DNA of 64,000 nt from the NCBI GenBank assembly GCA_900128585.1, contig LT642151.1, positions 1-64,000 of the forward strand, in the 5' to 3' direction. The notes beneath the pieces are model-generated. The model worked only from the letters and a program-made list of their open reading frames with translations, made no database searches and was not told the DNA's origin. Both the position numbers and the translations under genes were made by a program. This DNA is from Stramenopiles sp. TOSAG23-3. Its lineage: Eukaryota; Sar. Below, one piece after another: positions 24,501-64,000 of this stretch (within the stretch, counting starts at the first letter, position 1; every line of letters begins with the position of its first letter).

Positions 24501-27500
24501 CTTCTCGTTGGTGGTAACCAAAGCAAATTTCTCTGCTTCGTGCAATTTTTGTCTGTTTTCGAAATCTTCCTTGCTTTTGGAAATGTGGTCTTCTAACTTT
24601 TGTCGATATACCTCTATCTCACTGTTCTTTCCCGCAATTTCTGTTTCATTTTTTGATCGGCTGGACTGCAACTCGGACTCTACCTTTGACAATTTTGTGA
24701 CCGCATTCATGTGATCCATCTGGGCGGCTTCCAAAGCCTTTTTCAAATGTTGTATTCTAGATATCAAAACAGTGCTGTCAAATTCATCGTGCGTGTTGGG
24801 ATTTGAAACGTCGGCCACCGCGGGTGTTTCTTCCTGGGCGATCGTGGACGCAGGCCTGAATGCAACTTCCTTGTTGCCTGAGTCAAGACTTTCGCCGATC
24901 GGTTCCTGGGGCAATTGTGTGTTCGTCAGTGCCGGTGCCCCATCAAGAGTGGACAAGCCAGTCTGTTTTCGATCGCGGATTCTTTCAAGCTCATAAGCCG
25001 ATTTGGACAGCTTTTCGTTCAGCTCAGCGATCGTGCATTTGAAGGCGTTATTCTCTAATGTACAAAATTCTAGCTCTTCTTTGTTCCTTTGAGCCTCAAC
25101 GCGCAATCGCCCATTTTCTTGGTTCGTTTCATTCAAAGAGTTTTGCAACTCACTCACGTGTTTCTGAAAATACTGCATTTCGAAGTTGGGGACTGGTTCC
25201 TTCGTAGCCAAAGCACTTTCCCCTTCTTCCTTTATCTCGTTCAATTGGTTTCGAAAGAATTCGGCTTCTTGCCGAGACGCTGCAAGTGCTGTTCTCAGTG
25301 TGTCCACCTCCGCCTCGTTGCGATTGTTTTTCGTTTCAGGTACGGCCTCTGTTTCCGTCGATACGGTTGCCTGTGGGTTTGCACTCTTACGTAAATCTGC
25401 AAGCTCTTTCTGGGAGGCTGCCAAAGCCGCTTTTAGGGCAATCACATCGTATTTGTTTCGTTTTGGTTCCAATTTCCGTTCACCCCCAGCGTCTGTGGCA
25501 GTAGAAGCATTGGAACGTTGCGTTCCCTTGTCTACTCGGTTACGGTTCTGGTTCTGCACAGCTTCCAATTCAAGAAGCAGCGCAGCAATTTTATTTGCAT
25601 TTTCTAGTTGCAATTGTTCGTGGGTTTCCTTCAGAAGGATTACGGCATGCACATGCCTGTCATTCAAATCATTTAATTTTCTTGCCATTTCCTTCTCTTG
25701 AATTTCCTGGTCTTCTCTTACTTTCTTCAAAACTTCCTCCGGAACAGATTTTGTAGCCATATCTAGCTTTTGCTGGTAGGAATCCTGAGTGGAGGCCACC
25801 TGGGCTTTTAAACAGGAAGCAAGCTCTTCTGCACTTGCGAGTCTCTCTTTCAAAGTACTGTTTGACGCTCTCAAACCCGTTGCGGTGGTTTCTAATTTGG
25901 TTAGCAGCTCGCTCTTCGCAACATTGTCGTCCGCCATACGTCCCGATTGGTGCTTGAACACTTCTATTTCTTTTTGCATCCGTTTCCGTTCTTCCTCACG
26001 CTGTTGATCGATGGCCAAAATGTTGCTTTTAAGATCTTCGATTTGCGTCTTCAGCACCAACTCTCTACGTTCCATTTCACGGTGTTTTTTCTCTGCCTCA
26101 ATTATCTCTGAAGCCGCACTCTCTTGGGTGGTGCTAATAACGTCCTTTTGAAACGCAACCTTCTCCTCGAAATCTTCGCGCTGGGAAATTAGCGTTTTTT
26201 CCAAAGTCTCGGTCATTAGCTCAGCCCTAGCAGCTCTGGCGTCGGCATTTTTGCACGCTGCTTTAGTGTTTTCCAGTATTTTAAATACGTCCGCTTCGTC
26301 AACTGTAACACCAGTCTCGCTTCGCTCCCTTTTGGGTTCTTTCAAACCTCCATCTTTTCGTCGCTGAAACTGTCTGGCCAACGATTCTGCCCTCGATGCC
26401 CTGGCCTCTGCATCAGCAGCTATCATCTCGGCCCTTTGTAACATTTTTGCGACTCTGTCGTTTTCGTACATTAGCCTTTCATTTGTTTTTTGGAGCTGGT
26501 CGGATTCCATTTCGACGAACGCCTGGGTTCCGCTGTTGTTCGTAGTGGGAGAACTGGTCTGCGTGCCGGTAGACGGGTCGTCTTTGGACCTCCTGCTTTC
26601 TGGGACCAAGTCAGATTGAGTCCCGTGGGTTTTTCTACTCGGCGGTGGAGTCTGGGTGCCGCTAGATGAACCACTCGACAGATCGCTTTGAAGGCCTATA
26701 GAAAACGACGGGGATTTGGGCAGAGCGATTGCATCGACCCCTCTGTCCTCTGTTCCCATGATTGTGATCGGTCTATCCTCCGTTGTCGTCATCACGCCGG
26801 AACTAACTGTACGCGCTCTGGGGGACTGCGTGCTTGAATCCTTGGAAACAGCGGCTCCCCGACGTGGCGTTTGCGTCTCTATGCTTGCTATTTGGCCGTC
26901 CTTCAAATTACTCTGAAGCCCGACAGAATGCGTTGAAACTCTTGACGGGGTGCTCATGCTCTGGATAGGATGGTCGCCCCCCGCCGACGAATCGATCAGA
27001 AGTGGCCCGCCCGCCAGTTCGGATCTCGGAGACGACCATCGAACCATCATGGGTATATCTTCGTCTAGAATAGAGCTTGTAATCTCAGCACCGGCACTTG
27101 AGGGTCTCTTTTTAACAGGGGTTGACTCCGGGGTTTGCGTTCCCATGTTTTGCATAGCACATTTCAAATCTGTAAAGAACGCCAAGTCGCTTTGCAATCC
27201 AACCGAGGACGGCGATGCCTGGCTCATGGCACTCACTCTGCACGTTTCGCGCTGCGATTGCTTCAATTTACTGTCCTTGTCTGCTGTTTCTTGCATCGCC
27301 GAGACGTCTTCTAACATTTCCAAGTACGACTCCGAGCGCTGCTCGGCTTCACGAGCCCTTTTCAGGGCCAGATTCTTTTCTTCGATGGATAGGTCAAGCT
27401 TAACAGAAAAATCATCTAATTTCTGCTGCAGCGCCTTTTCGTTTTCTTCTTTCCACTTCATTTCCATTAACGTTTTCTCCGCCTCCTGCAGCTCGCTAAC

Positions 27501-29222
27501 AACCGCCGCATACATGGCTTCGCACGTGGATAAGGCTTCTCTTACTTGCAACTGTTCGCAGCTCTGCTTGGTCTCCGTACCACCGACCGCGGAGGTGCTT
27601 TGTGGCGCATCTCCGATTTTGCACATCTTTTTGAGGCGTACCTGGCTCTCCGAAAGCTGGAGGGCGTTCTCGTTCAGGAACGAAATGTAGCGTTCCAGGG
27701 CCGACTGTGACCTCTGCTTTTTCTTCCCCGCAACGATTTCTTTGAAAAACGAGAGCAGGTCTACTGGCTTGTAACCCCCAACATCGGCGAGGCTTTTGTG
27801 TGACGTTTGAATTTGGAGTTCTTTCCATAGCTCATCGCACCGCATGCGAAACATCCTATTTTGTTCCCGTTCTTTGTTCAAATCGTCCTCCACATGCGCC
27901 AATGCGCCGTGGTGATTCCTTCCCCCGTACAATTCTGCAGCGCCGACCACGTGCAGTTCGGACAGGTGGTTCTTTGTCAATTCCAAATCGTCTGGGCGCA
28001 GGGACCTATCGTACACCCGCTTTTTTCGGCCTTGAATCTCATCGTTTAGCACGGCAGATGTCTTTAGTATGCCCATTTTCCCGCTGGTGGACTGCGCTGG
28101 AAAGCGATCTTGGCGAACGGTCGTCCCCGTCTCGTCGACGGCACTCGAAAGGTGGGACACTGAAGCCGACTCTTTTGTGCGGTCCACCAAAATGCTCCCA
28201 GGGACGGATTCTATCGGGCCGATGGTCGAGTAGAAAGGGTCGTCGATGCGCGTAAACGCCAGCTGCTGCTCTAGCCCGGACACAACCTCCCCGGCCTTGA
28301 CAAGAGCGTGGGCCTTTTTGTCCAACAAAAGGGTCTTGGTCTCGAGCTCCAACGCGACCTTTTCCTCCCGTACCGACAGTCCCGCCAACGTGCCCCGGGC
28401 GGCATTCTTCACCTCGTCCATTTCCTGCGTCACCCTATGGGCGACCTCTTCCGCCAATTGTGACCGCTTTTTCTCCTCGCTCAGTGCCCCCTTCAAGTAG
28501 TCGATCTCGTCGTTTTGAAAGACCCTCCTGGCTTCTTCCTTGTCCTGTATCGTCACGGCGGTGCCGTCGAGGGTATCTAAAAACTGCAATTTGTACACGA
28601 TGAATATCCTGGCGTGAGGCGCCATGACACACGGGTTTCCACGGATGCTCAACGACTGCAGGTTGTTCATCTCCTGCAGCTTCTTTAGCTCTCCTATATT
28701 TTTTATCTTATTCCTGCATATTCTCAAACTGTACAGCCGGGGCAAAGCGGCCCCGAAGGCAGGCGGCAGGCTTTCGATACAGTTCCCGCTCAGGTTCAGG
28801 CGTTCCAAAAATTTCAAACACTCATAGTTTTCAATTCTCTTTATCCTATTGTCGGACAGGTTAAGCTCCTTCAAGCTGGCCAAAGCCGCGAAATTTTCCA
28901 TTCTCTCGACTAGGTTGTCGCTCAAGTCTAACAGCTCTAGGCGTGGGACAAAGCGGAGGTTTTCGATCTTGTAGACCCGCCGGTTGTCTTTCCGGTTGGG
29001 GCGAACGACCAACTCCGTGACACCCCCTAGTGGGCCTCTCACGACGCCAGTCCTTCTTCTAATCAGGGCTTCTGTCATGTATTCGGGAGACGGCCGGCCA
29101 CGTTCAGCAGCATTTTCAGCACTCTCAGCCTTAGCCCCCTCCTCCCCCTTCTTCTTTGTGTTCGTGCGCGCGTATGCACGCCCAAGAGACTCGTCAAACT
29201 CTCGCTGAAGTCGAATCTCCAT
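18561..29222 (-). CDS. Giant LRR/coiled-coil protein, centriolin-like
   Basis: 3553 residues from the first ATG at 29222, in one exon of 10.7 kb. After a charged N-terminus, Y-M-T-E-A-L-I-R-R leads into about five SDS22-type leucine-rich repeats (residues about 80-230), then F-L-D-T-L-D-G and V-T-I-Q-D-K-E-E-A-R. That order closely follows the N-terminus of animal centriolin (CNTRL), a maternal-centriole and midbody protein. The rest is mostly coiled coil. Low-complexity blocks interrupt it: residues about 677-907 and 3087-3220 repeat the pattern G-L-Q-(S/T)-(D/N)...G-T-Q-T-P, about 2787-2920 hold a 67-residue tandem duplication, and about 2637-2668 hold a Cys3His zinc-knuckle-like motif. Length exceeds human centriolin (about 2300). 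A role as a long scaffold at the basal body is inferred; orthology rests on the LRR region. Confidence 0.7.
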   Translation of the reverse strand: MEIRLQREFDESLGRAYARTNTKKKGEEGAKAESAENAAERGRPSPEYMTEALIRRRTGVVRGPLGGVTELVVRPNRKDNRRVYKIENLRFVPRLELLDLSDNLVERMENFAALASLKELNLSDNRIKRIENYECLKFLERLNLSGNCIESLPPAFGAALPRLYSLRICRNKIKNIGELKKLQEMNNLQSLSIRGNPCVMAPHARIFIVYKLQFLDTLDGTAVTIQDKEEARRVFQNDEIDYLKGALSEEKKRSQLAEEVAHRVTQEMDEVKNAARGTLAGLSVREEKVALELETKTLLLDKKAHALVKAGEVVSGLEQQLAFTRIDDPFYSTIGPIESVPGSILVDRTKESASVSHLSSAVDETGTTVRQDRFPAQSTSGKMGILKTSAVLNDEIQGRKKRVYDRSLRPDDLELTKNHLSELHVVGAAELYGGRNHHGALAHVEDDLNKEREQNRMFRMRCDELWKELQIQTSHKSLADVGGYKPVDLLSFFKEIVAGKKKQRSQSALERYISFLNENALQLSESQVRLKKMCKIGDAPQSTSAVGGTETKQSCEQLQVREALSTCEAMYAAVVSELQEAEKTLMEMKWKEENEKALQQKLDDFSVKLDLSIEEKNLALKRAREAEQRSESYLEMLEDVSAMQETADKDSKLKQSQRETCRVSAMSQASPSSVGLQSDLAFFTDLKCAMQNMGTQTPESTPVKKRPSSAGAEITSSILDEDIPMMVRWSSPRSELAGGPLLIDSSAGGDHPIQSMSTPSRVSTHSVGLQSNLKDGQIASIETQTPRRGAAVSKDSSTQSPRARTVSSGVMTTTEDRPITIMGTEDRGVDAIALPKSPSFSIGLQSDLSSGSSSGTQTPPPSRKTHGTQSDLVPESRRSKDDPSTGTQTSSPTTNNSGTQAFVEMESDQLQKTNERLMYENDRVAKMLQRAEMIAADAEARASRAESLARQFQRRKDGGLKEPKRERSETGVTVDEADVFKILENTKAACKNADARAARAELMTETLEKTLISQREDFEEKVAFQKDVISTTQESAASEIIEAEKKHREMERRELVLKTQIEDLKSNILAIDQQREEERKRMQKEIEVFKHQSGRMADDNVAKSELLTKLETTATGLRASNSTLKERLASAEELASCLKAQVASTQDSYQQKLDMATKSVPEEVLKKVREDQEIQEKEMARKLNDLNDRHVHAVILLKETHEQLQLENANKIAALLLELEAVQNQNRNRVDKGTQRSNASTATDAGGERKLEPKRNKYDVIALKAALAASQKELADLRKSANPQATVSTETEAVPETKNNRNEAEVDTLRTALAASRQEAEFFRNQLNEIKEEGESALATKEPVPNFEMQYFQKHVSELQNSLNETNQENGRLRVEAQRNKEELEFCTLENNAFKCTIAELNEKLSKSAYELERIRDRKQTGLSTLDGAPALTNTQLPQEPIGESLDSGNKEVAFRPASTIAQEETPAVADVSNPNTHDEFDSTVLISRIQHLKKALEAAQMDHMNAVTKLSKVESELQSSRSKNETEIAGKNSEIEVYRQKLEDHISKSKEDFENRQKLHEAEKFALVTTNEKRDMARSVAEDRLKEELNAKVLSITELKTSLDELRQIISTLKIENESLGKEKIFIASQNDEEVHGLRAKASNDKLEIHAMRSKYVDKEEELHIMTKSLELANDKILVLKKHLSSLEDKHATQSTAVSSVTEIIQTFEETLDGLRSDLDKERKKRIIAENNLQHASDASEELRRRMQDLKSKMVERGDKELLSRVKALEESNKILAIENAETRAFKSVYENQIKQGKETEKELTKSLLEMNMQFQKLGQENAMLQSKGRGEHVFIQELKNQSLQLLDSTKTHGRILGQLQEGVAELDSAQSKAIEELGDLKDFKQISSTEISAIVKSQKQKIEELQASCDTLVRENMTLSSQVATFEIEQRAAKEDMAIGPVSDAVAKPIENVAAELEERNAEKQAFVSKINSLKSELKSSREDFDRRLEERDNQLQEVVQSFKVNSELMSKTKKENYDTLQQSFAGKQKSFELGLVNLQEKLSASEDALSGEREENKMRIENLQNIKANLQKQLIDREELLNAMTATKEKLQRDVDRCRLDLKASDSRVAELKETCASLEDRVNAATAKLKSARADKEEIQDNLESANAMFAEEVGELNGKVLTLEKAHKLFVRGKSELEARMEQVTLEKIEFQAAFQRLKEDRSSSNEEQKRMCENLKQSFEIAESALAIEKGKNEELESKLERITTTAFTHGTIIENLENKCSNISLQLSESQSLVFKYEGKLSDALVENEKLREARDANEDDIARLQNETVLLQKEKSLLASKNEVDMKAMEKRIVNLQSSDKSMLAEQQLLLLKETHAASALSFKSTIESLESKLEASVKDHKQELAEEESQKRRAEAELESAIREKNDVSTKLAVATDKLKERESELKSAQEGFFEARNTYSMEIDGLKQDIKEIGLAKKESGGLENMVGKSEWDTLNKKMVDLEVKLRQETGEVTKLKAAYNEEKKNVFKLNEELQHLKKYSERAEAKIGALVDSKIIQTTTSSSESKAIQTVPPDIAHAATETTIGTGAEAKLVQATCANECKDTQTARLSQSNAATGTIDFAALLVDSSTMTQPDVPYDDRSERPTRCLGILASGENKGQQCVNSSAAYDNGFCGQHQSQLSKPRSVPALVKMFESKTKATMTPTIETKNTSSTANFSQVDADAEPAQVVSSGTMTTVEKDEVVSKAHIGIIVSTANVSKSTLTESRRGVDAETQADSENSYVERYSAPNARGSALSNTKSVGTSPCFEEGEKAKKKVTDVGTLASCSTVSSSTNTQVRPDVEVGTTASVETVSAAVNTDDILLNTESVGTSPCFEEGGKAEKKVTDVGTLASCSTASSSTNTLARPDVEVGTTASVETVSAAVNTDDILLLSSENLEIVNDQVLDELSAMKIRAMGAEANVSKEIVARKCAEDALKSANERCEAIQQEFFKLQTEHLFENNAVGLCSPVQSDGPTASADGHKEKDSVECAEYETKRLALEERAEAAEEALGEEFQARVGVEERLRQATAHISELEKIAQSSVAAEVVTRYSIDHVSIGTLTDMSLCAVEQVDTGLQTEYNSSDVGTSASLAEFPPTPQEDVGLQTDAALVDAGTSATVTRIKPAERADVGLQTENKSADVGTIANVELSTSSTTTAAAPFNLTADVGVSVTADTNTVSVCTESDASVDGTFADAHKEPHDPPMVISDIDKAASNTQETMIQIQRMASETEKLKSAARKAAASVETKDAYDNEKDAMLKELQFYEGSHEDESITIDRDNVDASVKRESSEGLKHVSAEDAVSAAKRIREHLELLRKADDKIATASASRKELLKLRETERKNEERVRVKDASLLAKQSKPAVHPAQRRHRSKQLKERDQILTPVFSDNKAVGWIINRDNNKWSARSTNSKAHGKGEGEPMVRLHRSGSVEISMQLDSIRRYQESQQSSSREKNRAYVTPAVHRSRAYGKQNSTVGGRPTPTHHLNNENLVNSQSSPYSGQQSVGARAYSLRQRLKKQTAFLRK
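19560..19960 (-). repeat. Degenerate VGLQTD/GTSA protein repeats
   Basis: Within the centriolin-like gene, units of about 20-25 codons repeat the pattern D-V-G-(L-Q-T-x/T-S-A/T-I-A), about nine units in all. They are too diverged in DNA to be recent. A related G-L-Q-S-D...T-Q-T-P set lies at 26500-27190 in the same gene. Confidence 0.7.
20461..20862 (-). repeat. 201-bp tandem duplication in the centriolin-like gene
   Basis: Two head-to-tail units (20662-20862 and 20461-20661), 201 bp or 67 codons each, differ at only a handful of bases. They encode Ser/Thr-rich sequence with the phrase T-D-V-G-T-L-A-S-C. High identity indicates a recent in-frame duplication. Confidence 0.9.
21219..21314 (-). 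other. Cys3His zinc-knuckle-like motif within the centriolin-like protein
   Basis: C-L-G-I-x6-K-G-Q-Q-C, then after about 11 residues G-F-C-G-Q-H. The spacing C...G-x-x-C...F-C-x-x-H matches a short zinc-binding pattern common in endonucleases and other algal and viral proteins (DUF5763-like). Flanking sequence is unstructured linker, so this is a small island module. Confidence 0.5.
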
Positions 29223-30580
29223 CGCCCACCCGCCTTTTTTACCACCCCTCGTACGCTGCGTATGAACAACAAAAGGAGAACTCACTGACAAGGTGACCCC
29301 ACAGTTTTCAATCGAGGTATTGTGTGCACACACCTTTCAAACCCTTGGAAGATGTAAAGAACAAAAAATGGAAATATGTAAAGGGGTTAAAAGTTCTCCA
29401 CACACTTTCACTTGGTTTTAATACAAAAAAATATTATTATTATTATTATATTTATGATATATTTTTTTATTAAAAAAAAAAAAAGAGTAGTTGTTGTTGG
29501 TTTGTTTTTTTCTTCTCTTGAAAATAATATAATAATAATAAAAAAATAAATAATAATAACATAATAATAACAAGGAGGAAGGAGGTAAATATTTTCTTTT
29601 AAATAATATTTTTTTTTTCCTTCTTCTTCTCTTTCTTCTTCTTCTTCTTCTTCTTTCTTCTTCATTTTCAAATCTATTATTTATTTAAAGGAACAAACAC
29701 TATACATATATATACTTAAAGCAATTCCTATTTAAAAAAATCAAATTTTAAAATGGCGCCAACCTCAATCCTAACATAAAAACATAAAACTCTGAAAATC
29801 GATTTATTTATTCCAGTTATGTGGCTTGTATAAAAAATACGATTGATGACCATGATGGGAGTAGATAGGAAACAATCCAGGATAATTTTTTCTATTAAAA
29901 TATGCATGCTGTATATATATATTGATTCAATGACGTAAGTGAGGAGCGATCGTACTTAATTTGTATTCTATTAAATATGAGGTCTGTAGTCCTTCGTTTT
30001 ATTATTAATCCTTTGTATTTTAAATTAGATATTACCTATTGTGGTTCCCAATACGGTAATACCGGTAGAACTGGAAGAATGCATTTTTAGTTATTATTAG
30101 TTATAAAGTAAAGAGAAGTATAAAATATAAGAATTAATAGTCTGTTCTAATATATTATTATTTTGACTACTATATATAGGAATACAATAGAGATATATTA
30201 AATATGGGGACCGCACATTTTTTTTTATTCGTTACTGGTTTGTATACGTTAATACCTGTAATGTAGTAACCATGATGTTCGATTATAATAATTGTTTAGA
30301 TAGAGTTGTTTACCTATACTCGTATAGCTTTTAATAATTAATATTTTTATAAGAGAGAAGACAGACTGGCGGCGGCGAGACATGACATATAGATACATAT
30401 CCATTCACTCATTCCACCGATGGCACATTTGTTTTACATAATCGTTCGAATTCTATTGTGAATCCCATGGGCCTGTGTTTGCATTTGCGGGAACACTTCG
30501 TAGGTATTGTCATTCAAAACACGAAGTTAACGTTTCCACGTTTGAACAACGTAGTTCTGTCCAACCGATCGTATACAATC
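29223..30580. other. Divergent AT-rich spacer
   Basis: This lies between the divergent centriolin-like and coiled-coil genes. It contains ATTATT runs (29430-29570), a pyrimidine tract (about 29609-29663), and nearly featureless AT-rich DNA to 30440. In-frame codons upstream of 30581, including an ATG at 30467, could extend the following gene by 38 residues. No RNA gene is recognised. Confidence 0.6.
29609..29663. repeat. CTT polypyrimidine tract
   Basis: An uninterrupted C/T run made mainly of CTT units, in the divergent promoter region between the genes starting at 29222 and 30581. Confidence 0.85.
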
Positions 30581-52022: not shown

Positions 52023-53900
52023 ATGTGGACAAAACAATCGCCGACGAGGAAACGGGGAAGGCGACGGTCCACGAAAACAATTCCAAAGGTGCGGACGGAT
52101 GCATCAAACGTACTTGGTGAAAGGACATTGAGCTGCAAAAAAATACCTCGGTCGCCATCGTGTACAACTTCACCAACCATCTCTCCTCCTCCCCTAAAAC
52201 TGTCCCCTTCCCATTCGGTTAGTACATCGTTCTGGACGTCTCCAAGGTTGCAAAACTCGCCGCGTCGACCCGAAGTCAACCATGTAGACGGGGACAATGC
52301 GCCGAGCAACAAGTCGCCATTAAAGGCCCGAAGGGTCGTCTCGGTGAAGAAACTGTTGGCACAAGATCAACCCAACAACCAGCAAGAGCAGGGCAGTGAG
52401 CCTGGACAAAAGGCAACTTTGGGCAACGAGAAACGCAACGAGCAACGCAACGAGAAACGCCGGTCGTCCATTCACCTATTGCAGGCAGGCGCAGACGGCG
52501 CCCACAAGGAAGGAAATTCCCATGTTCACGTTCTGAAGGAGAAATTAATGCATAAAATGGCCACCCTGGCGATGGATGACGACGAAGCAGTTCACACTGC
52601 AAATGTAGAATTGAGCATGCTAGACGTGCACGACCTGATCTCTACGCTAGCAGAGTTTGAGTCTATGCTGTCCATGGGGAACGTTCATGTGGACGACTTC
52701 GACGATGTCAGCACAAAAGAAATTATTGGAGAGTACTCCCCTAGTACTAAATCAAACAAGACGTTCGCGATGCGGAAATGGGGAAAAGCGTTAAAGAGCA
52801 TTTCAAACAAAATACACCCCGACAAGAGAAAAGACCACGTTCAGTTTTTCAAATCGCTAAAAGTCCTCAAGGTGCCGGCCAGCACCATCAAAACTGCCCT
52901 AGGCCTTTTGCAAGATTTTGGAAAATGGCATTTAGACATTCTAGAACTTGGCGAAATATGCGGTAAAGAGACGTTTGCTTTCTTGGCACATTTGGTCTGT
53001 CAGAGCCTCCCGTTGGATCTAGACTCCATCAATGTAGACCCAGAGGTCCTGCACAACTACATGGAGGCGATTGCAAGGCATTACCGTGAAGACAACCCGT
53101 ACCACAATGCGCTGCATGGCGCAGACGTTGGGCATGCCGTGTTTCATTTTTTGACAGTCGAACATTGGGACGAATTCATGAAGCCCCTCGAGGTGTTTAG
53201 CTGTGTTATGGCCGGGTTCTTGCACGACTGTGGTCACCCAGGCGTGAACAACGCTTACCTCGTCAACACATCTCACATGCTGGCACTGCGGTACCATGAT
53301 CGCTCGCCATTAGAAAACATGCATGCGGCGATAGCAATGGAGACTTTGAAAGAGGATGGGTGCAATTTTATGGCCACCATGACGCGGGGGAGCAGGAAAA
53401 CGTTTCGTAGTATTCTAATTGAAACCATCCTTGGGACCGACAACGCGCTGCACTTCGACCACATCATGAGACTGCAAGATAACTTGATGAAAGGCCATCA
53501 GAAAGACAACCCCTTTACAGTGGGCGACGAGGGCAGTCGAATGTTTATTCTGCAGCTGCTCCTGCATTTGTGCGATTTGTCCAACCCTGCGAAACCATTG
53601 TCAACTTATTTGCAGTGGTGCGACCTCGTAATGGCAGAATTTCACATGCTTGGAGACAAAGAGAAAGAAGCCGGGTTGCCCGTGGGACATATTTTTAAAA
53701 GGGAGACCCCTTTGCACGATGTGCAAATTGGGTTTGTAAAGTATTTGGTGAATCCGTTCTACTTAGAGATGAACAAAATTGGCGGCGTTGACCTGAAAAC
53801 ACAACTTTCGTGTATAGACATTAACCTTAAGTACTTTCAGGACATCAAGAAGCTAAAGGAGGAAGAGGAAAAGAAGGAGAACGACGCAAAGAAGGAGTAA
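52023..53900 (+). CDS. 3',5'-cyclic nucleotide phosphodiesterase (PDEase_I)
   Basis: 625 residues from an ATG. The first 200 are basic and Ser-rich with several R-R-x-S-like sites, probably disordered and regulatory. Residues about 330-600 form a class I catalytic domain: Y-H-N-A-L-H-G-A-D-V near 360 (the catalytic His motif), F-L-H-D-C-G-H-P-G (metal-binding H-D) near 400, Y-H-D-R-S-P-L-E-N-M-H, L-C-D-L-S-N-P-A-K-P (the second metal Asp), and Q-I-G-F-V near 575 with the purine-holding Gln. The C-terminus is a Glu/Lys-rich helix. The enzyme should hydrolyse cAMP or cGMP; specificity cannot be read from the Gln alone. No GAF, PAS or membrane domain is visible. Flagellar cyclic-nucleotide signalling is one plausible setting. 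Confidence 0.92.
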   Translation: MWTKQSPTRKRGRRRSTKTIPKVRTDASNVLGERTLSCKKIPRSPSCTTSPTISPPPLKLSPSHSVSTSFWTSPRLQNSPRRPEVNHVDGDNAPSNKSPLKARRVVSVKKLLAQDQPNNQQEQGSEPGQKATLGNEKRNEQRNEKRRSSIHLLQAGADGAHKEGNSHVHVLKEKLMHKMATLAMDDDEAVHTANVELSMLDVHDLISTLAEFESMLSMGNVHVDDFDDVSTKEIIGEYSPSTKSNKTFAMRKWGKALKSISNKIHPDKRKDHVQFFKSLKVLKVPASTIKTALGLLQDFGKWHLDILELGEICGKETFAFLAHLVCQSLPLDLDSINVDPEVLHNYMEAIARHYREDNPYHNALHGADVGHAVFHFLTVEHWDEFMKPLEVFSCVMAGFLHDCGHPGVNNAYLVNTSHMLALRYHDRSPLENMHAAIAMETLKEDGCNFMATMTRGSRKTFRSILIETILGTDNALHFDHIMRLQDNLMKGHQKDNPFTVGDEGSRMFILQLLLHLCDLSNPAKPLSTYLQWCDLVMAEFHMLGDKEKEAGLPVGHIFKRETPLHDVQIGFVKYLVNPFYLEMNKIGGVDLKTQLSCIDINLKYFQDIKKLKEEEEKKENDAKKE

Positions 53901-54276: not shown

Positions 54277-57200
54277 TTATTCAATCATCGGCATGTACGG
54301 CTGGGCATACAATGCAGCGTCCGCTTCGTCTTTCAGCCCTTTCAACCACTCCTTTCGCTCAAAATGATCCTGTATAATGCCCTCATCGTCGCTTTCTGTG
54401 CCTGGAAGCGCTTCCACACCAAGCCCTGAAACTGCTTCCCCCGCCGCCAATGCCTCTTCTCGGATGCAATGGTTGTACACTTTTTCGTACGTGACTTGAT
54501 CTTTCTGCACCTTATTCACCAATTTTCCGACGAGTTCTGCACTTTTCTGTGGGTGAAGCAAGTCATGAAGGCCAGGAGAAGACAACTTAACCGCAGACTG
54601 GTACATGTTTTCGCTTTGTATGGATTTCAATGCCGATGCATCGATGTGCCCACGGCCATCTCTGTCGAAAACCTGAACAAAAAGGCGCACCGACCGTGCA
54701 ATGAGATTTGGAAGCTCAATGTGTGCACACTCGCGGACGCCCTCCCACGGGCTTTCAATAGTTTCGATCCCTTTTCGAGTACGCTTCAACTTGCATGCAT
54801 CGTACAGCGTAAACATAGCGGCGAACAAACGTTTTTGCAAAGCATTCGCAAGCGATTCAAAGCGATTGATAAGGTTTCTGATTCCAAGCGCTATGTTATC
54901 TTTATGCACAGCATCTTTTTTTCGTAAGACGACGACCTTTTCGAAATCGACCAACAAGCAGCGGATATTAGGCTTAAAATCGTCTGCATCATATGCTATT
55001 AACAAGCTCGACCCAAAAAAGTCCATGTTGTTATGTTTTGATTGTAGTGATTCAAGCCGCGTCTTTAACGTTGAAACGATTTCTCTCAGCAGATCTATGC
55101 GAACGATTGTTTTGCTGGAACCTAGCGTCAGGAAATGCTCAAAAGAGCAGTCAGTCTCGTCGTCTGCGCCAATATCAACAAACTGCTCAAAGTCAGGGTT
55201 CCACATGCGCATGCCTACCAGTTCGTATGCATCACCCAGTCCTAATTTTTTTCCTTGCTTGTCAGAGCCTATCTTTACGTCCATTATACAAGGGCTCGAG
55301 AAACCTTTTGAAATATTTTCTATACTAACGTACTTGACAGCGTGATGATAGCAAATGCCACCAAATCTTGGAATAATCCTTCTAATAGCAGTGTTTGTTG
55401 CCGCCATGTGCTCGTAAAACGCTTCCTCCACCTCGGTTGTGTGCTTGCCGATGAATCGATCGGTCTTGTTCGGCCAAACAAAGCGCACACTCCCGTCCAC
55501 CGTCTTTTCCTTACCCCCAATGCGATCAATGTACTCCCGGCTGACGTTATCATTTCGCGATACCTTCCCGCTTCCTTGCTTCTGTCTAACCAGGTACTTT
55601 TCGTTCAAGCCGCATAAAAATACTCGAAGTTCGTCCTGGCTGATTTCGTCCATGGAAGCGGTGCACTTTACGGGCAATATGGTCAAAGTTGACCAGTACC
55701 ATTCGGGCTCCAGAAGAACCCTAGCCGTTGCACAGAGTTCAAGCTTTTCCTTAACAATGGGATCGGTTACGTAATGGATTATGTTCACCTTCTTTGTGGG
55801 CGCATACTTGTGCAAATCCAACTTTTCAACACGCATGATGGTGTACAAATTGTTCAGTGCCTGATTCAAATCGTACTCTGGGCTTGCTCTTGGGTATTGT
55901 TTCACGTCCGTTCGAAGCTTGACGTGCCCCCATCCCGCGCACAGACCGGCACAATAAATGACCATTTCGTCGTAGGTAATTTTGATTTCTATCGCATCTA
56001 GTGCTTCCTCCAGCGTTTGGCCCTCTGGCAGTACGTAGGAATGTGACGCGAGTTTCTTTGATTCCAAGGCCAGCAGAGTCTGCTTCAAACAAAGGAAAAG
56101 ATCACGGTCCTGCTCCCGCAGCTGAAGAATAGGCGTTAAGGTTGCAATTTCAGACAAAGCATAAGGCTCGTCCAGCTTGTCAATTATTGATTGCAAGGGT
56201 ACAGGCGCATCTTTTGAAAACCCAGAAATATCATAAAATGCGTCCAAAGTAGCAGAAATTTCTTTCAGCATTTTCATCGCTTCCTTCACGTTCAAAACTA
56301 CTGAATTCTGGGCTGCCACGACACCGCTGCAAAACCCACGAACTTCTTCGAACGTGACAAAGCCATCGTTGTCGGTATCGATAGCCATTAACGTTGCCCA
56401 GAATGCGCGGGGTTTTAGCAGAGGTTGTAGTGGGGCGCATTTGCGAATTATGTCTCGAATATTGTCTTTGTGCAAACCATGCATCAAATCAACTTTTGTT
56501 ATTTTACGCTCTGCCCCGTGGCCCATGGCCTCGAACAATTCCATCAGTATGGACTTTAAATCGTTGTGCACGTCTTTTTGAGCTTCCCTGTTCTCTAAAT
56601 CAAAATCAGATTCTTCCAGGGCGCTCATAGCCAAATCGCTCTTGACGGCAATGTCTTTGCTCGCGTCCATTGAGTACATGCCTGTACAGAACATACGCAA
56701 CTCCTGAAAATCTACGCTTCCGTCATGGTTTGTGTCCATTGCATTAAAAGTTTCCTTGTAAGTCCGGGGGTGCAAAAGGGGTTTGAGAGGGGGGCACTCA
56801 TTTATCATTTCGCTCACGGCGGGTTTACCTAGCGACATCATGATGTCTTTTTTTGAGATTTTCCCTTGCCCATGCTTGTCAATTGTGTCGAACAACTCCT
56901 GCAGCGAATTTTCCAATTCCCGAACGTCGCTGTAAACATTTGCAAAGTGCTTCTTGCGCTCCTGGGTCCGCTTAACAGCAATCGCCCGCTCTTGACGACC
57001 GCGGGCTATGTGCTGGATTTTGGCCGCCGCGTTCTTTTGTTTTACTAGCATTTGTCGGTCTGCCTTGCCACGTTGGAGTTTTTGGATCTTCGTCGCAGCA
57101 AGGGCTCGCTGCTCTTCTTCAAGTGCTTCCGTGTCGTCCTGATCAGTTTCCATAATGTCGTTGATGTGGCTCAAAACATCGTCGTCTCCAGGTTTAATTT

Positions 57201-60200
57201 CCGAGGCATCTGTAATTGAAACTTGCACACGGCGAAGCGATTTTTCTCTTCGCTTTTCAAGTAGCAGTTCCCGCCTCGTCATTTGACTAACGGGCTTGTT
57301 GCGCTTTGCAACCTTTTCCTCCATCTCAAGCCGGTCGCTGTCCTTGAGCGCTTTCAAAGCTTGTTGGTGGGCCATTTCGGCCTCGATCCTCATTTCCTCC
57401 TCTCGCTCCTTCAGTTTTGCCACCTTTGCTTCCTCAATACGCCGCTCCTCTTCTAAAGCCTTGTCCCGAGCTTCCTGTATCTGCCGTTCTTCCTCTTCTT
57501 TTTCGGCCAATAACTTTTCTGCAGCCATTTTTGCATCGTGCTCCTCTTTCCTACGATTTTCTTCAAATTCACGCTGCGCGCGAGCCTCGTCATCAGCGAC
57601 TTCTTTGGCTTCCTTAACCTTTAACTGAGCCCGTCGCTTCGCAATTTCCGCTTCCTGTGCTTCAAGCTTTGCAGCGTGTGCTTCTTCATCCGCTAGTTTT
57701 TCCATGGCGCGTGCTTCCTCCTCTTCTTTGTGGTACAGGTCCAGCGCATTCTCTGCGTCTCTCTCCGCCTTCTCCGCGTTCTTCAACGACTCGTGAGCAC
57801 GCTGCCTCGACAACCGGGCTTCCCGCTCCTCTTTCTCTAAAATTGCTCGCGCGTACTCACTAGTGTCACCGCGCCTTTCCATGTCCTCCCGGGCACGGGT
57901 GGCCTCTTCTTCCTCCGCAGCGGCTTCTTTGAGCGCCACCTCAGCTTCCCGGCGTGCTATTCCTGCAAACCGAGCTTTTTCTTGGGCTATCTTTTTTGCC
58001 CTGTCGGCTTCGATTCTCTCCTTAAGGGCAAGGGCGGCATCTTTTTCTGCAAGGGCAATGGCAGCCTCAGCTTCCTTCTGTTCTTTCAGGGCCTCCGCGG
58101 TGGCTTCATCTAGTTCATCGTTGCCTTCTCCGAACGATCCAGTGGGGGCCGCCATTCCTATAGACGCCCATTTTTCACGAAAGTGTTCGTCCGATGCCGT
58201 AACGGCTTCTAGGACCCAGTCGCAGAGGGGGGCAAATGCGCAGTATTTTTCATCTTCCACCAATGTCTCGGGAGAAAAACGAGGGTGGTGGGTCACACGC
58301 TGCAACCGATGAAGGGTTTCCTCGGTGACGCTGGTAGCGTTAAACTTTCGTAAGCGATCACGAAATTCGGGCTCATTCACAATACGTTGCGCCACCAACC
58401 ACGTAGGGTTTTCTCCGACAAGCATGCACACCGACCCCAATATTCGCATTATCAACGGCGGGGGCTTTGGCCCATCCGCCGTGCACAGGGCAGCGATGGC
58501 CCGCTCGTCGAGTTGATCGAACGTCGCGCTTTTCACGGGAACCGCCCGGCCAGGGACGCCAATATCTGAGCTTGGAGTCTTTACCATTGCCCGAAGTCGC
58601 CTTGCCTGCTCCGCTTGCTGCCGTTGCTTTGCTCTCATCAGCCATGGCTGAGGCCCGGTGGACTTTTCGGGAGACGGGACGGGAATGGACGGCGTGCTGA
58701 TTTCTTTCTGAGGGGCCTTCGGCGATTTTTTCTTGAGAATTTGTACTGCCCCTGGCTTGTCCAATTCCAATTTTAACGTTTTGTCCAGGGACGGGACCGG
58801 TGATAACTTCTGTTTTAACGGCGACTTGCCGGTCTTCTTCTTCTTCTTTGCTGAACCGGCCTGCAACTTCTTCGCGTGTCGTCCCTTTTGCTTTTCCCTC
58901 TCTATCCTCTCTTTCTCGATGACCGCAAGCTCTTGGTATTTGATGTACCCTGATGAGCGGTGGTCAAGCTCTTGAAGCAGCACGTTTCGCTCGTTTTCGG
59001 ACCCTGAGAACCCTACTGCCACGAGCGCGTCAGAAAAGTCGTCCCTACTGACAACACCGCGCTTTTCACCGTCCCGTTTCATGCACTCGGCCAGCAGTCC
59101 CGTGATTTTGGAGTCTACAATTTTGCCCAGCTCTTTGAACCCAGCCTCTGCCTCCAACGCTTCCCGGCTCTTCACCGCCCCGCTTCGGACGGCGGCGTTG
59201 ACGGCGACACGGGCACGCTGGGCGTCGAGCGTGTCGGGCTTTTCGAACCCACCCCCAGTGCGCTTGACGGAGGTGTCGTTTTTTTTCTTTTTTGGTGCTC
59301 CAACGTACGTGCCATCGTCCCCTTCGCTATTTAAATCTTGCCGGGGCCTCATCTCGTACTCGTTGCCGTTCCACGGCGGCCGCTCCCTCAAAACGTCCTT
59401 TTTCTTTTTTCTCCTTGAACGCTTCTTGCGCTGGGTGCCGTTCGAAAAAGTACTATTTTCTTTCAGCGTTGGCAACGGGCCGGACGACGGGAGGACAATA
59501 CTGCGCTCTGCCAATTCTCCCGGCGATATGGACGTGCTCGGCGGGGGGCTCCCGCCGACTTTAGGGCTGTTGCTTCCCGAGCTGCTCGTGGGCGAAAATT
59601 GGCGGCGGCTGTTGTTCGGGTTTTCAATCTCTTCTTTCCACCCCATGTTCTGCGCGACGTTTGGGGGCACCAGCCACTTCGGAACGCTTTGCTTTTCATC
59701 TTTCTTCTTTCCCCAAACTTCGTAGTGGGCATCGTCGCTTTTGATCATCTGTTGCGTGTACGGTGTCTTCATCAGCTTCTTGAGCTTTTTCGTAACCGCC
59801 CTCCTCTTCCTCCTCCTGTGCCTGCTTTCCCCAAAAGACGCAGTGGACATTCCTGCGGAGCTGGCGATACTGGATAAACTATCCGGGGCGTCTATCCCCC
59901 CCGCGCCCAGGGCGAGCAGGCTGGCCCCTTGGCGAGCCCTCGCTTTGTTCTGCAATAGGACAGCCCGCTCTTCCAAAAGTTTTGATTTTTCCGTCTCGAT
60001 GGACGACAGCAAGTGTGCCTTTCGTTCCATCTCTTTCACCAGGGCGCGGTTCTTCCTTATCTTCTCGCGCTGCCACTCATTAAACGCGTTCACGGCCGCT
60101 TGTCGCTTGGCTTCCTTCTCGGCCAAGTCCTGCTTCGACGTGTCCGGCTTCTTCCCTTTTTTTTTCTGCAGCACTTGCTTCTCCTTGTTCCATACCTTCC

Positions 60201-60507
60201 AGCGCTCTTCTGCGTCCTTCTTCCGGTTTGCCCGTTTCCGGGCCTTCGCGGCCCTCTCCTCCTCGGTCTCCGGGACGGTCGTCATGGACATTGGCAAACG
60301 GCCGGTGCTGGACCGTGATATCTTCGATTTCTTCAGCTTTGCGTTCCATGTCTTTGCCATTTCCTTTGTGACTGTATTGTTCTTGATTTTCTGTTTCAGC
60401 GATAGATCTGTCTTTATCTTTCCACGCTTTCTTCGCGGGACGAGCAGCCGCTCTGCCCACTTGTCGTTTGGCTTTAACGACTTTTCAACTAACCCGAGGT
60501 ACGCCAT
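54277..60507 (-). CDS. EF-hand / dynein-stalk-like / IQ / inositol polyphosphate kinase fusion
   Basis: 2076 residues from the first ATG at 60507, one exon. In order: a basic N-terminus with helical W-x-x-W/K segments; a degenerate EF-hand pair (about 470-530); a module at about 665-770 (K-P-P-P-L near 681, then L-V-G-E-N-P-T-W and, near 758, L-C-D-W-V) matching the pattern of the dynein heavy-chain stalk tip; Ala/Glu-rich coiled coil (about 800-1050); two IQ motifs (about 1138-1170); EF-hands with D-T-N-H-D-G-S-V-D (about 1256) and D-T-D-N-D-G-F-V-T (about 1376); then at about 1690-1890 an inositol polyphosphate kinase domain. That domain shows P-C-I-M-D-V-K-I-G near 1739, S-S-L-L-I-A-Y-D near 1832 and V-D-F-E-K near 1851, matching P-x-x-x-D-x-K-x-G, S-S-L-L and I-D-F. 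A last EF-hand (D-R-D-G-R-G-H-I-D) follows. A calcium-controlled, microtubule-linked inositol kinase is inferred. Confidence 0.8.
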   Translation of the reverse strand: MAYLGLVEKSLKPNDKWAERLLVPRRKRGKIKTDLSLKQKIKNNTVTKEMAKTWNAKLKKSKISRSSTGRLPMSMTTVPETEEERAAKARKRANRKKDAEERWKVWNKEKQVLQKKKGKKPDTSKQDLAEKEAKRQAAVNAFNEWQREKIRKNRALVKEMERKAHLLSSIETEKSKLLEERAVLLQNKARARQGASLLALGAGGIDAPDSLSSIASSAGMSTASFGESRHRRRKRRAVTKKLKKLMKTPYTQQMIKSDDAHYEVWGKKKDEKQSVPKWLVPPNVAQNMGWKEEIENPNNSRRQFSPTSSSGSNSPKVGGSPPPSTSISPGELAERSIVLPSSGPLPTLKENSTFSNGTQRKKRSRRKKKKDVLRERPPWNGNEYEMRPRQDLNSEGDDGTYVGAPKKKKNDTSVKRTGGGFEKPDTLDAQRARVAVNAAVRSGAVKSREALEAEAGFKELGKIVDSKITGLLAECMKRDGEKRGVVSRDDFSDALVAVGFSGSENERNVLLQELDHRSSGYIKYQELAVIEKERIEREKQKGRHAKKLQAGSAKKKKKTGKSPLKQKLSPVPSLDKTLKLELDKPGAVQILKKKSPKAPQKEISTPSIPVPSPEKSTGPQPWLMRAKQRQQAEQARRLRAMVKTPSSDIGVPGRAVPVKSATFDQLDERAIAALCTADGPKPPPLIMRILGSVCMLVGENPTWLVAQRIVNEPEFRDRLRKFNATSVTEETLHRLQRVTHHPRFSPETLVEDEKYCAFAPLCDWVLEAVTASDEHFREKWASIGMAAPTGSFGEGNDELDEATAEALKEQKEAEAAIALAEKDAALALKERIEADRAKKIAQEKARFAGIARREAEVALKEAAAEEEEATRAREDMERRGDTSEYARAILEKEEREARLSRQRAHESLKNAEKAERDAENALDLYHKEEEEARAMEKLADEEAHAAKLEAQEAEIAKRRAQLKVKEAKEVADDEARAQREFEENRRKEEHDAKMAAEKLLAEKEEEERQIQEARDKALEEERRIEEAKVAKLKEREEEMRIEAEMAHQQALKALKDSDRLEMEEKVAKRNKPVSQMTRRELLLEKRREKSLRRVQVSITDASEIKPGDDDVLSHINDIMETDQDDTEALEEEQRALAATKIQKLQRGKADRQMLVKQKNAAAKIQHIARGRQERAIAVKRTQERKKHFANVYSDVRELENSLQELFDTIDKHGQGKISKKDIMMSLGKPAVSEMINECPPLKPLLHPRTYKETFNAMDTNHDGSVDFQELRMFCTGMYSMDASKDIAVKSDLAMSALEESDFDLENREAQKDVHNDLKSILMELFEAMGHGAERKITKVDLMHGLHKDNIRDIIRKCAPLQPLLKPRAFWATLMAIDTDNDGFVTFEEVRGFCSGVVAAQNSVVLNVKEAMKMLKEISATLDAFYDISGFSKDAPVPLQSIIDKLDEPYALSEIATLTPILQLREQDRDLFLCLKQTLLALESKKLASHSYVLPEGQTLEEALDAIEIKITYDEMVIYCAGLCAGWGHVKLRTDVKQYPRASPEYDLNQALNNLYTIMRVEKLDLHKYAPTKKVNIIHYVTDPIVKEKLELCATARVLLEPEWYWSTLTILPVKCTASMDEISQDELRVFLCGLNEKYLVRQKQGSGKVSRNDNVSREYIDRIGGKEKTVDGSVRFVWPNKTDRFIGKHTTEVEEAFYEHMAATNTAIRRIIPRFGGICYHHAVKYVSIENISKGFSSPCIMDVKIGSDKQGKKLGLGDAYELVGMRMWNPDFEQFVDIGADDETDCSFEHFLTLGSSKTIVRIDLLREIVSTLKTRLESLQSKHNNMDFFGSSLLIAYDADDFKPNIRCLLVDFEKVVVLRKKDAVHKDNIALGIRNLINRFESLANALQKRLFAAMFTLYDACKLKRTRKGIETIESPWEGVRECAHIELPNLIARSVRLFVQVFDRDGRGHIDASALKSIQSENMYQSAVKLSSPGLHDLLHPQKSAELVGKLVNKVQKDQVTYEKVYNHCIREEALAAGEAVSGLGVEALPGTESDDEGIIQDHFERKEWLKGLKDEADAALYAQPYMPMIE

Positions 60508-62931: not shown

Positions 62932-64000
62932 ATGTCTGGAAATGGCGACTTCGAGGAGGAGTCTTATGGCACCCCCCTTCAAATTATATCCATCGATGAG
63001 GAAAATAGCAAATTCAAATTAAACGAGGTAGAACTTGAGCAGGTCATGGCGCGGGTGCCGAAGGGTATGAAGCTCTCTGTTGTCAGTATTGTAGGCGCTT
63101 TCCGCACCGGGAAGTCTTTCTTGCTAGATTTTTTCCTCAAGTACTTGCGCCTGCCGCAAACGAAGATTGGCCGCGAGGCTTGGAGCAACCTGTTTACCTC
63201 AAAATCTTCAAAGTTGGAAGGGAACTCCAACGAGAAGGTGTCCGAGGGTGACAAGAACAATGACAGCGGGTTTTCGTGGAGGAGTGGCACGGAGCGGAAC
63301 ACCATGGGAATATGGCTTTGGAGCAAACCGTTTGTCCGCAAGGTGAAAGAGACAGGGGAGTCCGTGGCAGTCCTGTTGGTAGACACCCAAGGAATCTTTG
63401 ACAGTCGCCTGACCCAGATGATGGCGGCATCCATTTTTGGGCTAAGCACGCTGCTTTCGTCGTACCAGATATACAACGTGCAGAACAGGCTGCAAGAAGA
63501 TCACTTGCAGCACTTGGCCCTGTTCACCGAGTACGGCCGGGTGACGTTGCGGGCCCAAGAGTCAAGCGGGGACAACAACAACAAGGCCAAGAAGGCGGGG
63601 ACGGACGAGCAACCGTTCCAGGTCTTGCAATTTCTCGTGCGCGATTTTCAGTTCGAAAGCAAAGACCGGAGCGAGGACAAGATGACCGAGTACTTGCAAA
63701 ATTTCTTGTCGGTCGAAGACCGGCAACAGAAAGACCTTCGCGAAATTCGTGAGCACATTCGCGATTCGTTCGAAAAGGTGAGCATTTTTCTCCTCCCTCA
63801 CCCTGGCTTTGACGTCCCGGACCCAGAGTACGACGGCGAAGTCAGCAAAATTCGCGACGTGTTTCGAGAGATGCTCGAGCAGTACGTGCCGCTGGTGTTT
63901 AACAGGGAACTGCGGCCGAAGACGATCAACGGTAACTTTATTACGTCAATGGAGTTCAAACATTTCATTCGCGCCTTCGTTAAGATTTTCGCTGATGGAA
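62932..64000 (+). CDS. Atlastin-like GTPase (partial, runs off the window)
   Basis: 356 codons from the ATG at 62932, still open at the window end. The order is that of the atlastin/GBP G domain: P-L-Q-I-I-S-I-D near the N-terminus, G-A-F-R-T-G-K-S (P-loop) near residue 56, G-T-E-R-N-T-M-G-I-W (switch I, with the conserved Thr and G-I-W) near 120, V-D-T-Q-G (G3) near 150, and L-V-R-D-F (the R-D guanine-specificity motif) near 240. R-E-L-R-P-K-T-I-N-G-N near residue 325 is the start of the atlastin middle domain. Atlastins fuse ER tubules by GTP-driven dimerisation and end in two membrane helices and an amphipathic tail, all beyond the window. The full N-terminus fits the family, so the gene begins here without an internal intron. 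Confidence 0.92.
   Translation, partial: MSGNGDFEEESYGTPLQIISIDEENSKFKLNEVELEQVMARVPKGMKLSVVSIVGAFRTGKSFLLDFFLKYLRLPQTKIGREAWSNLFTSKSSKLEGNSNEKVSEGDKNNDSGFSWRSGTERNTMGIWLWSKPFVRKVKETGESVAVLLVDTQGIFDSRLTQMMAASIFGLSTLLSSYQIYNVQNRLQEDHLQHLALFTEYGRVTLRAQESSGDNNNKAKKAGTDEQPFQVLQFLVRDFQFESKDRSEDKMTEYLQNFLSVEDRQQKDLREIREHIRDSFEKVSIFLLPHPGFDVPDPEYDGEVSKIRDVFREMLEQYVPLVFNRELRPKTINGNFITSMEFKHFIRAFVKIFADG

Follow-up and report, generated by a model that had tools for sequence, protein, structure and literature searches.

A stramenopile protein with EF-hands, a dynein stalk-tip-like module, IQ-like motifs and a predicted inositol polyphosphate kinase in a single chain

Within the inositol polyphosphate kinase (IPK) family, Entamoeba EhIP6KA and human IPMK are stand-alone enzymes, and animal inositol trisphosphate (IP3) 3-kinases receive Ca2+/calmodulin input. 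In CDPKs, an EF-hand module lies in cis with the kinase and controls it. The Plasmodium PI4P5K carries NCS-type EF-hands and an inositide kinase in one chain (PMC10543664), and the Terrestrivirus TvIPK (PDB 8t8u and others) is a minimalist viral IPK making inositol pyrophosphates (PMC10897400). Here, a 64,000-nucleotide stretch of Stramenopiles sp. TOSAG23-3 (contig LT642151.1, positions 1 to 64,000; hereafter the window) was found to encode a protein of 2076 amino acids (aa). Judged from its sequence, this single chain nearly certainly comprises, in order, EF-hands, a module resembling the dynein microtubule-binding domain (MTBD), a long helix, IQ-like motifs, further EF-hand units and an IPK domain. 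A first-pass annotation made from the DNA letters had proposed that one 6.2-kb frame unites EF-hand, MTBD-like, IQ and IPK modules, and all of them were located in the one chain.

None of these systems shares this layout. PI4P5K resembles the 2076-aa protein in joining EF-hands to an inositide kinase, but it is a lipid kinase of another family, and the accessible part of its description mentions neither an MTBD nor an IQ motif (PMC10543664). Likewise, TvIPK is a small viral enzyme for which EF-hand, IQ and MTBD go unmentioned in the accessible part of the source (PMC10897400). The CDPK is a protein kinase with a different domain order. Dynein heavy chains of the DNAH6/DNAH2 type have an MTBD homologous by sequence to residues 637-766 but also an AAA+ ring, whereas no AAA family was listed for the 2076-aa protein in a Pfam scan at E<=1; it is not a dynein. 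No description of the order EF-MTBD-IQ-EF-IPK was found in the open-licence literature, and within that literature the annotation's remark that no such protein had been described holds. In the accessible part of a review of IP kinases (PMC8024741), the terms EF-hand, fusion and domain architecture do not appear. Because the chain of EF-hands and inositide kinase has a precedent in Plasmodium PI4P5K, known domains appear newly combined here, and no new kind of domain is implied.

The gene lies on the minus strand as an uninterrupted frame of 2076 codons plus stop, running from its ATG at 60507 to 54277. With a codon-usage score trained on nine other frames of the window, its own frame surpassed the other five in each of 21 segments. 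Homologue searches returned three proteins with the IPK region and four with the MTBD region, together giving four full-length records. One of them, P0002, is a near-copy differing at 8 of 2076 positions. A search for the same domain order in related sequences, which the annotation had proposed as a check, found EF-hands, MTBD-like region, IQ region, EF units and IPK kept in this order in P0005, P0003 and P0004. These are 54.8% (2007 aligned positions), 48.1% and 48.4% identical to the 2076-aa protein; P0003 and P0004 share 79.1% with each other and 44.5% and 45.6% with P0005, and close to the N-terminus both have one additional EF unit, scoring 86.6 and 91.3 bits with an EF-unit hidden Markov model (HMM). 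Identity to P0005, P0003 and P0004 was highest in the MTBD region (residues 619-790; 78, 69 and 71%), with lower values in EF unit B (73, 59 and 58%), EF unit A (64, 55 and 59%), the long helix (residues 791-1075; 60, 58 and 57%), the IPK domain (52, 49 and 48%) and the final EF-like part (29, 27 and 28%). A search with the IPK alignment, which scored the 7997 candidates sharing most words, yielded five proteins: the family fragments P0006 and P0007 and the other IPKs P0008, P0009 and P0010. In P0006, from 'merc', which we take to be a marine metatranscriptome assembly, EF unit C is joined to the IPK. These searches were not exhaustive, the IPK-region search having missed P0005, which the MTBD-region search found; a length rule of 0.55-1.75 times the query excluded IPK proteins between about 460 and 1140 aa, and a shorter EF-IPK protein may have been overlooked for that reason. 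The GC fraction at third codon positions of the gene was 0.64-0.74 in segments 1-7 and 0.43-0.65 in the remaining 14 of 21.

The kinase domain scored 55.8 bits with the Pfam model IPK (PF03770; cut-off 22.2), and P0003, P0004 and P0005 scored 47.9, 49.0 and 55.3 bits. Both IPK-defining motifs were present, D[I/V]K[I/L]G as DVKIG at residues 1743-1747 (within PCIMDVKIG, from 1739) and [V/I]DF as VDF at 1853, with SSLLIAYD (from 1833) between them, in agreement with the ordered kinase motifs that had been annotated. The Asp of VDF is presumably metal-binding, and K1688, invariant in the four-protein alignment, is a candidate for the N-lobe lysine of the catalytic triad. The accessible part of the TvIPK study states the D[I/V]K[I/L]G motif for all IPK members (PMC10897400). 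A predicted model of residues 1655-1915 adopted the IPK fold (pLDDT 78.5, pTM 0.80) and was far closer to IPK structures than to any other structures; the annotation had made the fold of residues 1680-1900 a check of its assignment, and this span was modelled as an IPK. The domain, with intact catalytic motifs, is predicted from its family to have inositol phosphate kinase activity. A pseudokinase arising through motif loss was considered and found no support, the motifs being intact.

As to subfamily, a profile of the present family matched EhIP6KA (47.0 bits) and IPMK (42.6 bits) above ITPKA (35.4 bits) among solved structures, and EhIP6KA and IPMK were also among the top structural matches; both have a longer IP-binding element than the kinase here, by unaligned residues. 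The IP-binding segment measured 16-18 residues in the six family sequences that cover it and 31-33 in P0008, P0009, P0010 and C514, a second IPK of the same genome. A length of 31-33 may mark the IPMK/IP6K subfamilies, as inferred from those four sequences, and the kinase here falls short of it. IP3 3-kinases have a large helical IP-binding lobe. No such lobe was present in the kinase model, where the segment was without helix, and 80 residues of ITPKA (1w2f_B) were unmatched. Animal ITPKA/B/C share the common IPK fold, with fold scores tied with IPMK and IP6K, but they differ from the kinase here in a weaker family-profile match, a larger IP lobe and a separate calmodulin. The short IP loop recalls TvIPK. 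In an IPK tree, the five family rows grouped together (100/99); the other branches were long and silent on subfamily. With an IP-binding segment of only 16-18 residues, the kinase carries no mark of an IP3 3-kinase. The annotation's likening to the animal enzyme was not borne out by profile or segment length, though the single sequence favours ITPKA over IPMK.

Five Pfam EF-hand models exceeded their cut-offs (EF-hand_7 at 66.9 bits, EF-hand_6, EF-hand_1, EF-hand_8 and EF-hand_5), which together with canonical loops places the protein in the EF-hand superfamily, with Ca2+ binding predicted. The EF-unit HMM was built from units A and B of the four proteins, so the scores of A and B are those of training rows and that of unit C is from a non-training row (Table 1). 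The IQ pair, about 500 residues upstream of the kinase, comprises a full consensus at 1141 and a relaxed one at 1164; both are kept in P0003 and P0004, whereas in P0005 the first fails the relaxed pattern too and the second fits it. Calmodulin binding by this pair is putative: with EF-hand units directly after it, the chain may contain its own calmodulin instead of recruiting one. Shuffling the sequence 2000 times within blocks of 60 residues gave at least the observed number of relaxed IQs (two) in 0.3% of cases, of SSLL motifs in 0.1%, of EF loops (two) in 0% and of PxxxDxKxG in 2.4%; the xDF pattern, reached in 18.7%, is uninformative alone. The canonical EF loops claimed earlier were recovered, at 1258 and 1377, as were the two IQ-like motifs, the second IQ in relaxed form only, and in the proposed profile check IPK and EF-hand exceeded the Pfam cut-offs whereas IQ did not.

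Among solved-structure sequences, a single-query phmmer search matched residues 637-766 to the MTBD of axonemal dynein heavy chains (DNAH6, E=1.7e-7), and the four-sequence profile matched dynein MTBD at E=9.7e-11. The module is followed by a proline-free run of 283 residues.

Table 1 Features of the gene for the 2076-aa protein within the window (identities are to P0005/P0003/P0004).
Feature	Residues	Position	Strand	Remarks
Whole coding sequence		54277..60507	-	2076 aa + stop, single open frame; own frame best in 21/21 segments
N-terminal basic region	1-295	59623..60507	-	Without Pfam domain over cut-off; 67/49/50% identity
First EF-hand pair	483-527	58927..59061	-	EF-hand_8 best stretch, 42.1 bits whole-protein; outside canonical-loop pattern
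Dynein MTBD-like module	637-766	58210..58599	-	phmmer E=1.7e-7 to DNAH6; profile E=9.7e-11; conserved
Probable single long helix or coiled coil	789-1071	57295..58143	-	Charged, Ala-rich, without proline; 57-60% identity over residues 791-1075
Tandem IQ-like motifs	1141-1177	56977..57087	-	Consensus pattern; under Pfam cut-off
EF-hand unit A	1196-1280	56668..56922	-	Second loop canonical, 1258-1269; EF-hand_7 best stretch 1199-1271; unit HMM 137.9 bits
EF-hand unit B	1315-1399	56311..56565	-	Second loop canonical, 1377-1388; unit HMM 136.0 bits
Degenerate EF-hand unit C	1546-1634	55606..55872	-	Unit HMM 24.4 bits; without canonical loop
Inositol polyphosphate kinase domain	about 1675-1890	54838..55485	-	
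PCIMDVKIG motif	1739-1747	55267..55293	-	D1743 and K1745 invariant in four-protein alignment
SSLLIAYD motif	1833-1840	54988..55011	-	Motif match
VDF motif	1853-1855	54943..54951	-	Motif match; role of motif from accessible part of PMC10897400
Possible EF-like segment after kinase	1946-2014	54466..54672	-	1.2 bits, not significant; 11.4 bits in P0004

With catalysis, substrate, Ca2+ control and microtubule binding extrapolated from family knowledge, the protein could be a microtubule-tethered, Ca2+-regulated inositol phosphate kinase, a reading given nearly even chances. With no motor attached, the dynein-type module would anchor the protein to a microtubule lattice, perhaps that of the axonemal doublet, and the long helix would distance the C-terminal half from this anchor. 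Ca2+ on EF units A and B would alter the clamping of the adjacent IQ helix (a built-in calmodulin, CDPK-like) or the binding of calmodulin and so gate the kinase, which would act on an inositol phosphate at the tether site. Given its short, loop-like IP-binding segment, which the minimalist viral TvIPK also has, the kinase would more probably use a higher inositol phosphate of IP5/IP6 type than IP3, and pyrophosphates might be among its products.

Several results weigh against a tethered, Ca2+-regulated kinase of this kind. The dynein stalk model PF12777 was not listed at E<=1 for the 2076-aa protein, P0003, P0004 or P0005, and in a genome search the 2076-aa protein reached 21.0 bits, under the cut-off of 24. 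The module is therefore a diverged one, and the stalk-tip-like assignment of the annotation stood as homology to the MTBD, not at the level of the Pfam cut-off. The predicted MTBD model was poor (pLDDT 49.4), too weak for judging microtubule contacts, and Foldseek gave no match to it at E<=0.001; dynein MTBDs ranked first among the structural matches of this low-confidence model. Only two EF loops of the protein fit the canonical pattern, Pfam IQ was absent from its scan at E<=1, and the IQ model gave 16.3, 15.5 and 14.3 bits in P0003, P0004 and P0005 (cut-off 20.3). Furthermore, the single-sequence search placed ITPKA (E=0.048) above TvIPK (0.062) and IPMK (0.28), the fold scores of the three IPK subfamilies were tied, and the IP loop is lysine-rich in the 2076-aa protein, P0003, P0004 and P0006 but not in P0005. 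The TvIPK loop is basic, and because that of P0005 is not, the likeness between them is weakened.

The dynein-like module might instead serve as a docking site for another protein, such as a dynein light chain or a different axonemal component, and make no microtubule contact, so that the protein would be a cytoplasmic or basal-body scaffold. It stands outside a dynein without matched long stalk arms, with a short helix before it (in the low-confidence model) and the proline-free run after it, and a structure exists of one dynein MTBD bound to a light chain (PDB 6l4p). Nevertheless, the module lies within the most conserved region of the protein and its alignment spans the MTBD core of axonemal dyneins, and a dock is considered rather unlikely.

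The IPK fold, for its part, might serve as a binder and not as an enzyme, the protein being a Ca2+-responsive microtubule scaffold with inositol phosphate as a structural cofactor. This would suit the reduced IP-binding segment, the scaffold-like remainder of the protein, the second, ordinary IPK in the genome and, according to the accessible part of the source, a Trichomonas doublet protein in which an IP6 ligand was assigned a stabilising role as cofactor (PMC11398567). However, D1743, K1745 and D1854 are invariant in four full-length members, which would not be required had catalysis been lost, and viral TvIPK with its loop-type IP element is active as far as the accessible text states (PMC10897400); such a binder is judged unlikely.

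That the protein, with an inbuilt calcium sensor, is a Ca2+-stimulated IP3 3-kinase that terminates IP3 signalling like its animal counterparts appears improbable: the IPK fold with nearby EF and IQ elements and the rank of ITPKA above IPMK in the single-sequence search would agree with it, but the family-profile ranking, the ITPKA residues without counterpart in the model and the short IP segment argue against it. Searches of the partial genome with PI-PLC-X, RYDR_ITPR and Ins_P5_2-kin gave no matches, but no control genome matched either, and no conclusion follows. Finally, although the homologues are predicted proteins, a frame made of two or more genes or of an assembly join is rejected as extremely improbable: the coding signal runs through without a break, the domain order recurs in three other full-length single chains, and the near-identical P0002 and the EF unit C-IPK link in P0006 argue likewise.

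The genome assembly is partial (12.9 Mb in 660 contigs), and an exact 18S rRNA primer-site pattern had no match in it. Its 14 matches to the dynein stalk model comprised 11 frames of 1315-4616 aa, which are taken as dynein heavy chains, the 2076-aa gene and two other short frames; since the genome has dyneins, the host is probably a flagellate. Five of the 11 dynein-like frames run uninterrupted for more than 4000 aa, a sign that the genome may be intron-poor. One short frame, C518 (L020:2160-4916; 918 aa), combines two EF-hand units (unit HMM 33.6 and 35.7 bits) with an MTBD that matched axonemal dynein at E=1.5e-17, exceeded the PF12777 cut-off and is 38% identical to the 2076-aa protein over residues 666-766; no IPK was found in its Pfam scan. 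Thus, C518 shows that EF-hands and an MTBD without a kinase exist in the genome, and the 2076-aa protein may have arisen by addition of an IPK to an older type of this kind that persists kinase-less. The other, C85 (L021:1649-2272), a 207-aa frame over the stalk-model cut-off (41.5 bits), is a possible stand-alone stalk tip. Two neighbouring long frames at C446 (L022), the one of 1101 aa truncated by the contig start and the other of 1666 aa, have EF-hand units of the same kind, in one of them together with DUF4537 and in one with a sub-cut-off CH_2 match. The ordinary IPK, C514 (L001), has 314 aa and scored 139.6 bits in the genome search; among 14 control genomes, the IPK model exceeded its cut-off in one, the archaeon Methanosarcina acetivorans.

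The converging neighbour gene at 52023-53900 encodes a cyclic nucleotide phosphodiesterase (Pfam). Elsewhere in the window, one frame (14732-16963) joins EF-hands to a ferric reductase/NADPH-oxidase-type protein, a layout we take to be Nox5-like; a 3590-aa frame (18561-29333) has leucine-rich repeats near its N-terminus and no further Pfam family at E<=0.001; and a frame leaving the window (62932-63999) holds a guanylate-binding-protein GTPase domain (207.9 bits). At gathering scores, no Rfam family matched the window, and no tRNA was found in it. A viral connection was sought by scanning viral contigs: the IPK alignment produced 49 pattern matches and the MTBD alignment 48, with 0 confirmed relatives, but each scan used just two short patterns and does not prove absence. 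As a sign of a photosynthetic host, chlorophyll a/b-binding proteins were searched for in the partial genome without a match, and of the 14 control genomes only Synechococcus matched.

Cilia and axonemes are apparently sites of inositol phosphate action: the accessible part of one study reports that Trichomonas doublets contain an IP6-like ligand and that Ipk1 occurs at basal bodies and is involved in zebrafish ciliary beating (PMC11398567). Because IP6 was assigned in those doublets, a local axonemal role of the tethered, Ca2+-regulated kinase would be reasonable. A more specific and speculative version, about which we are doubtful, is that a dynein grip domain was recruited off the motor to fasten a Ca2+-gated inositol pyrophosphate synthase to microtubules, with axonemal ones the likeliest, where a Ca2+ spike would yield a local inositol (pyro)phosphate signal or a doublet cofactor. 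A relative of the dynein MTBD is used outside a motor twice in one genome, both times beside EF-hands. Local inositol phosphate production would become directly testable with a kinase that has both Ca2+ sensors and a microtubule grip of its own, and the conserved combination suggests that an inositol phosphate signal may be made at a fixed cellular place.

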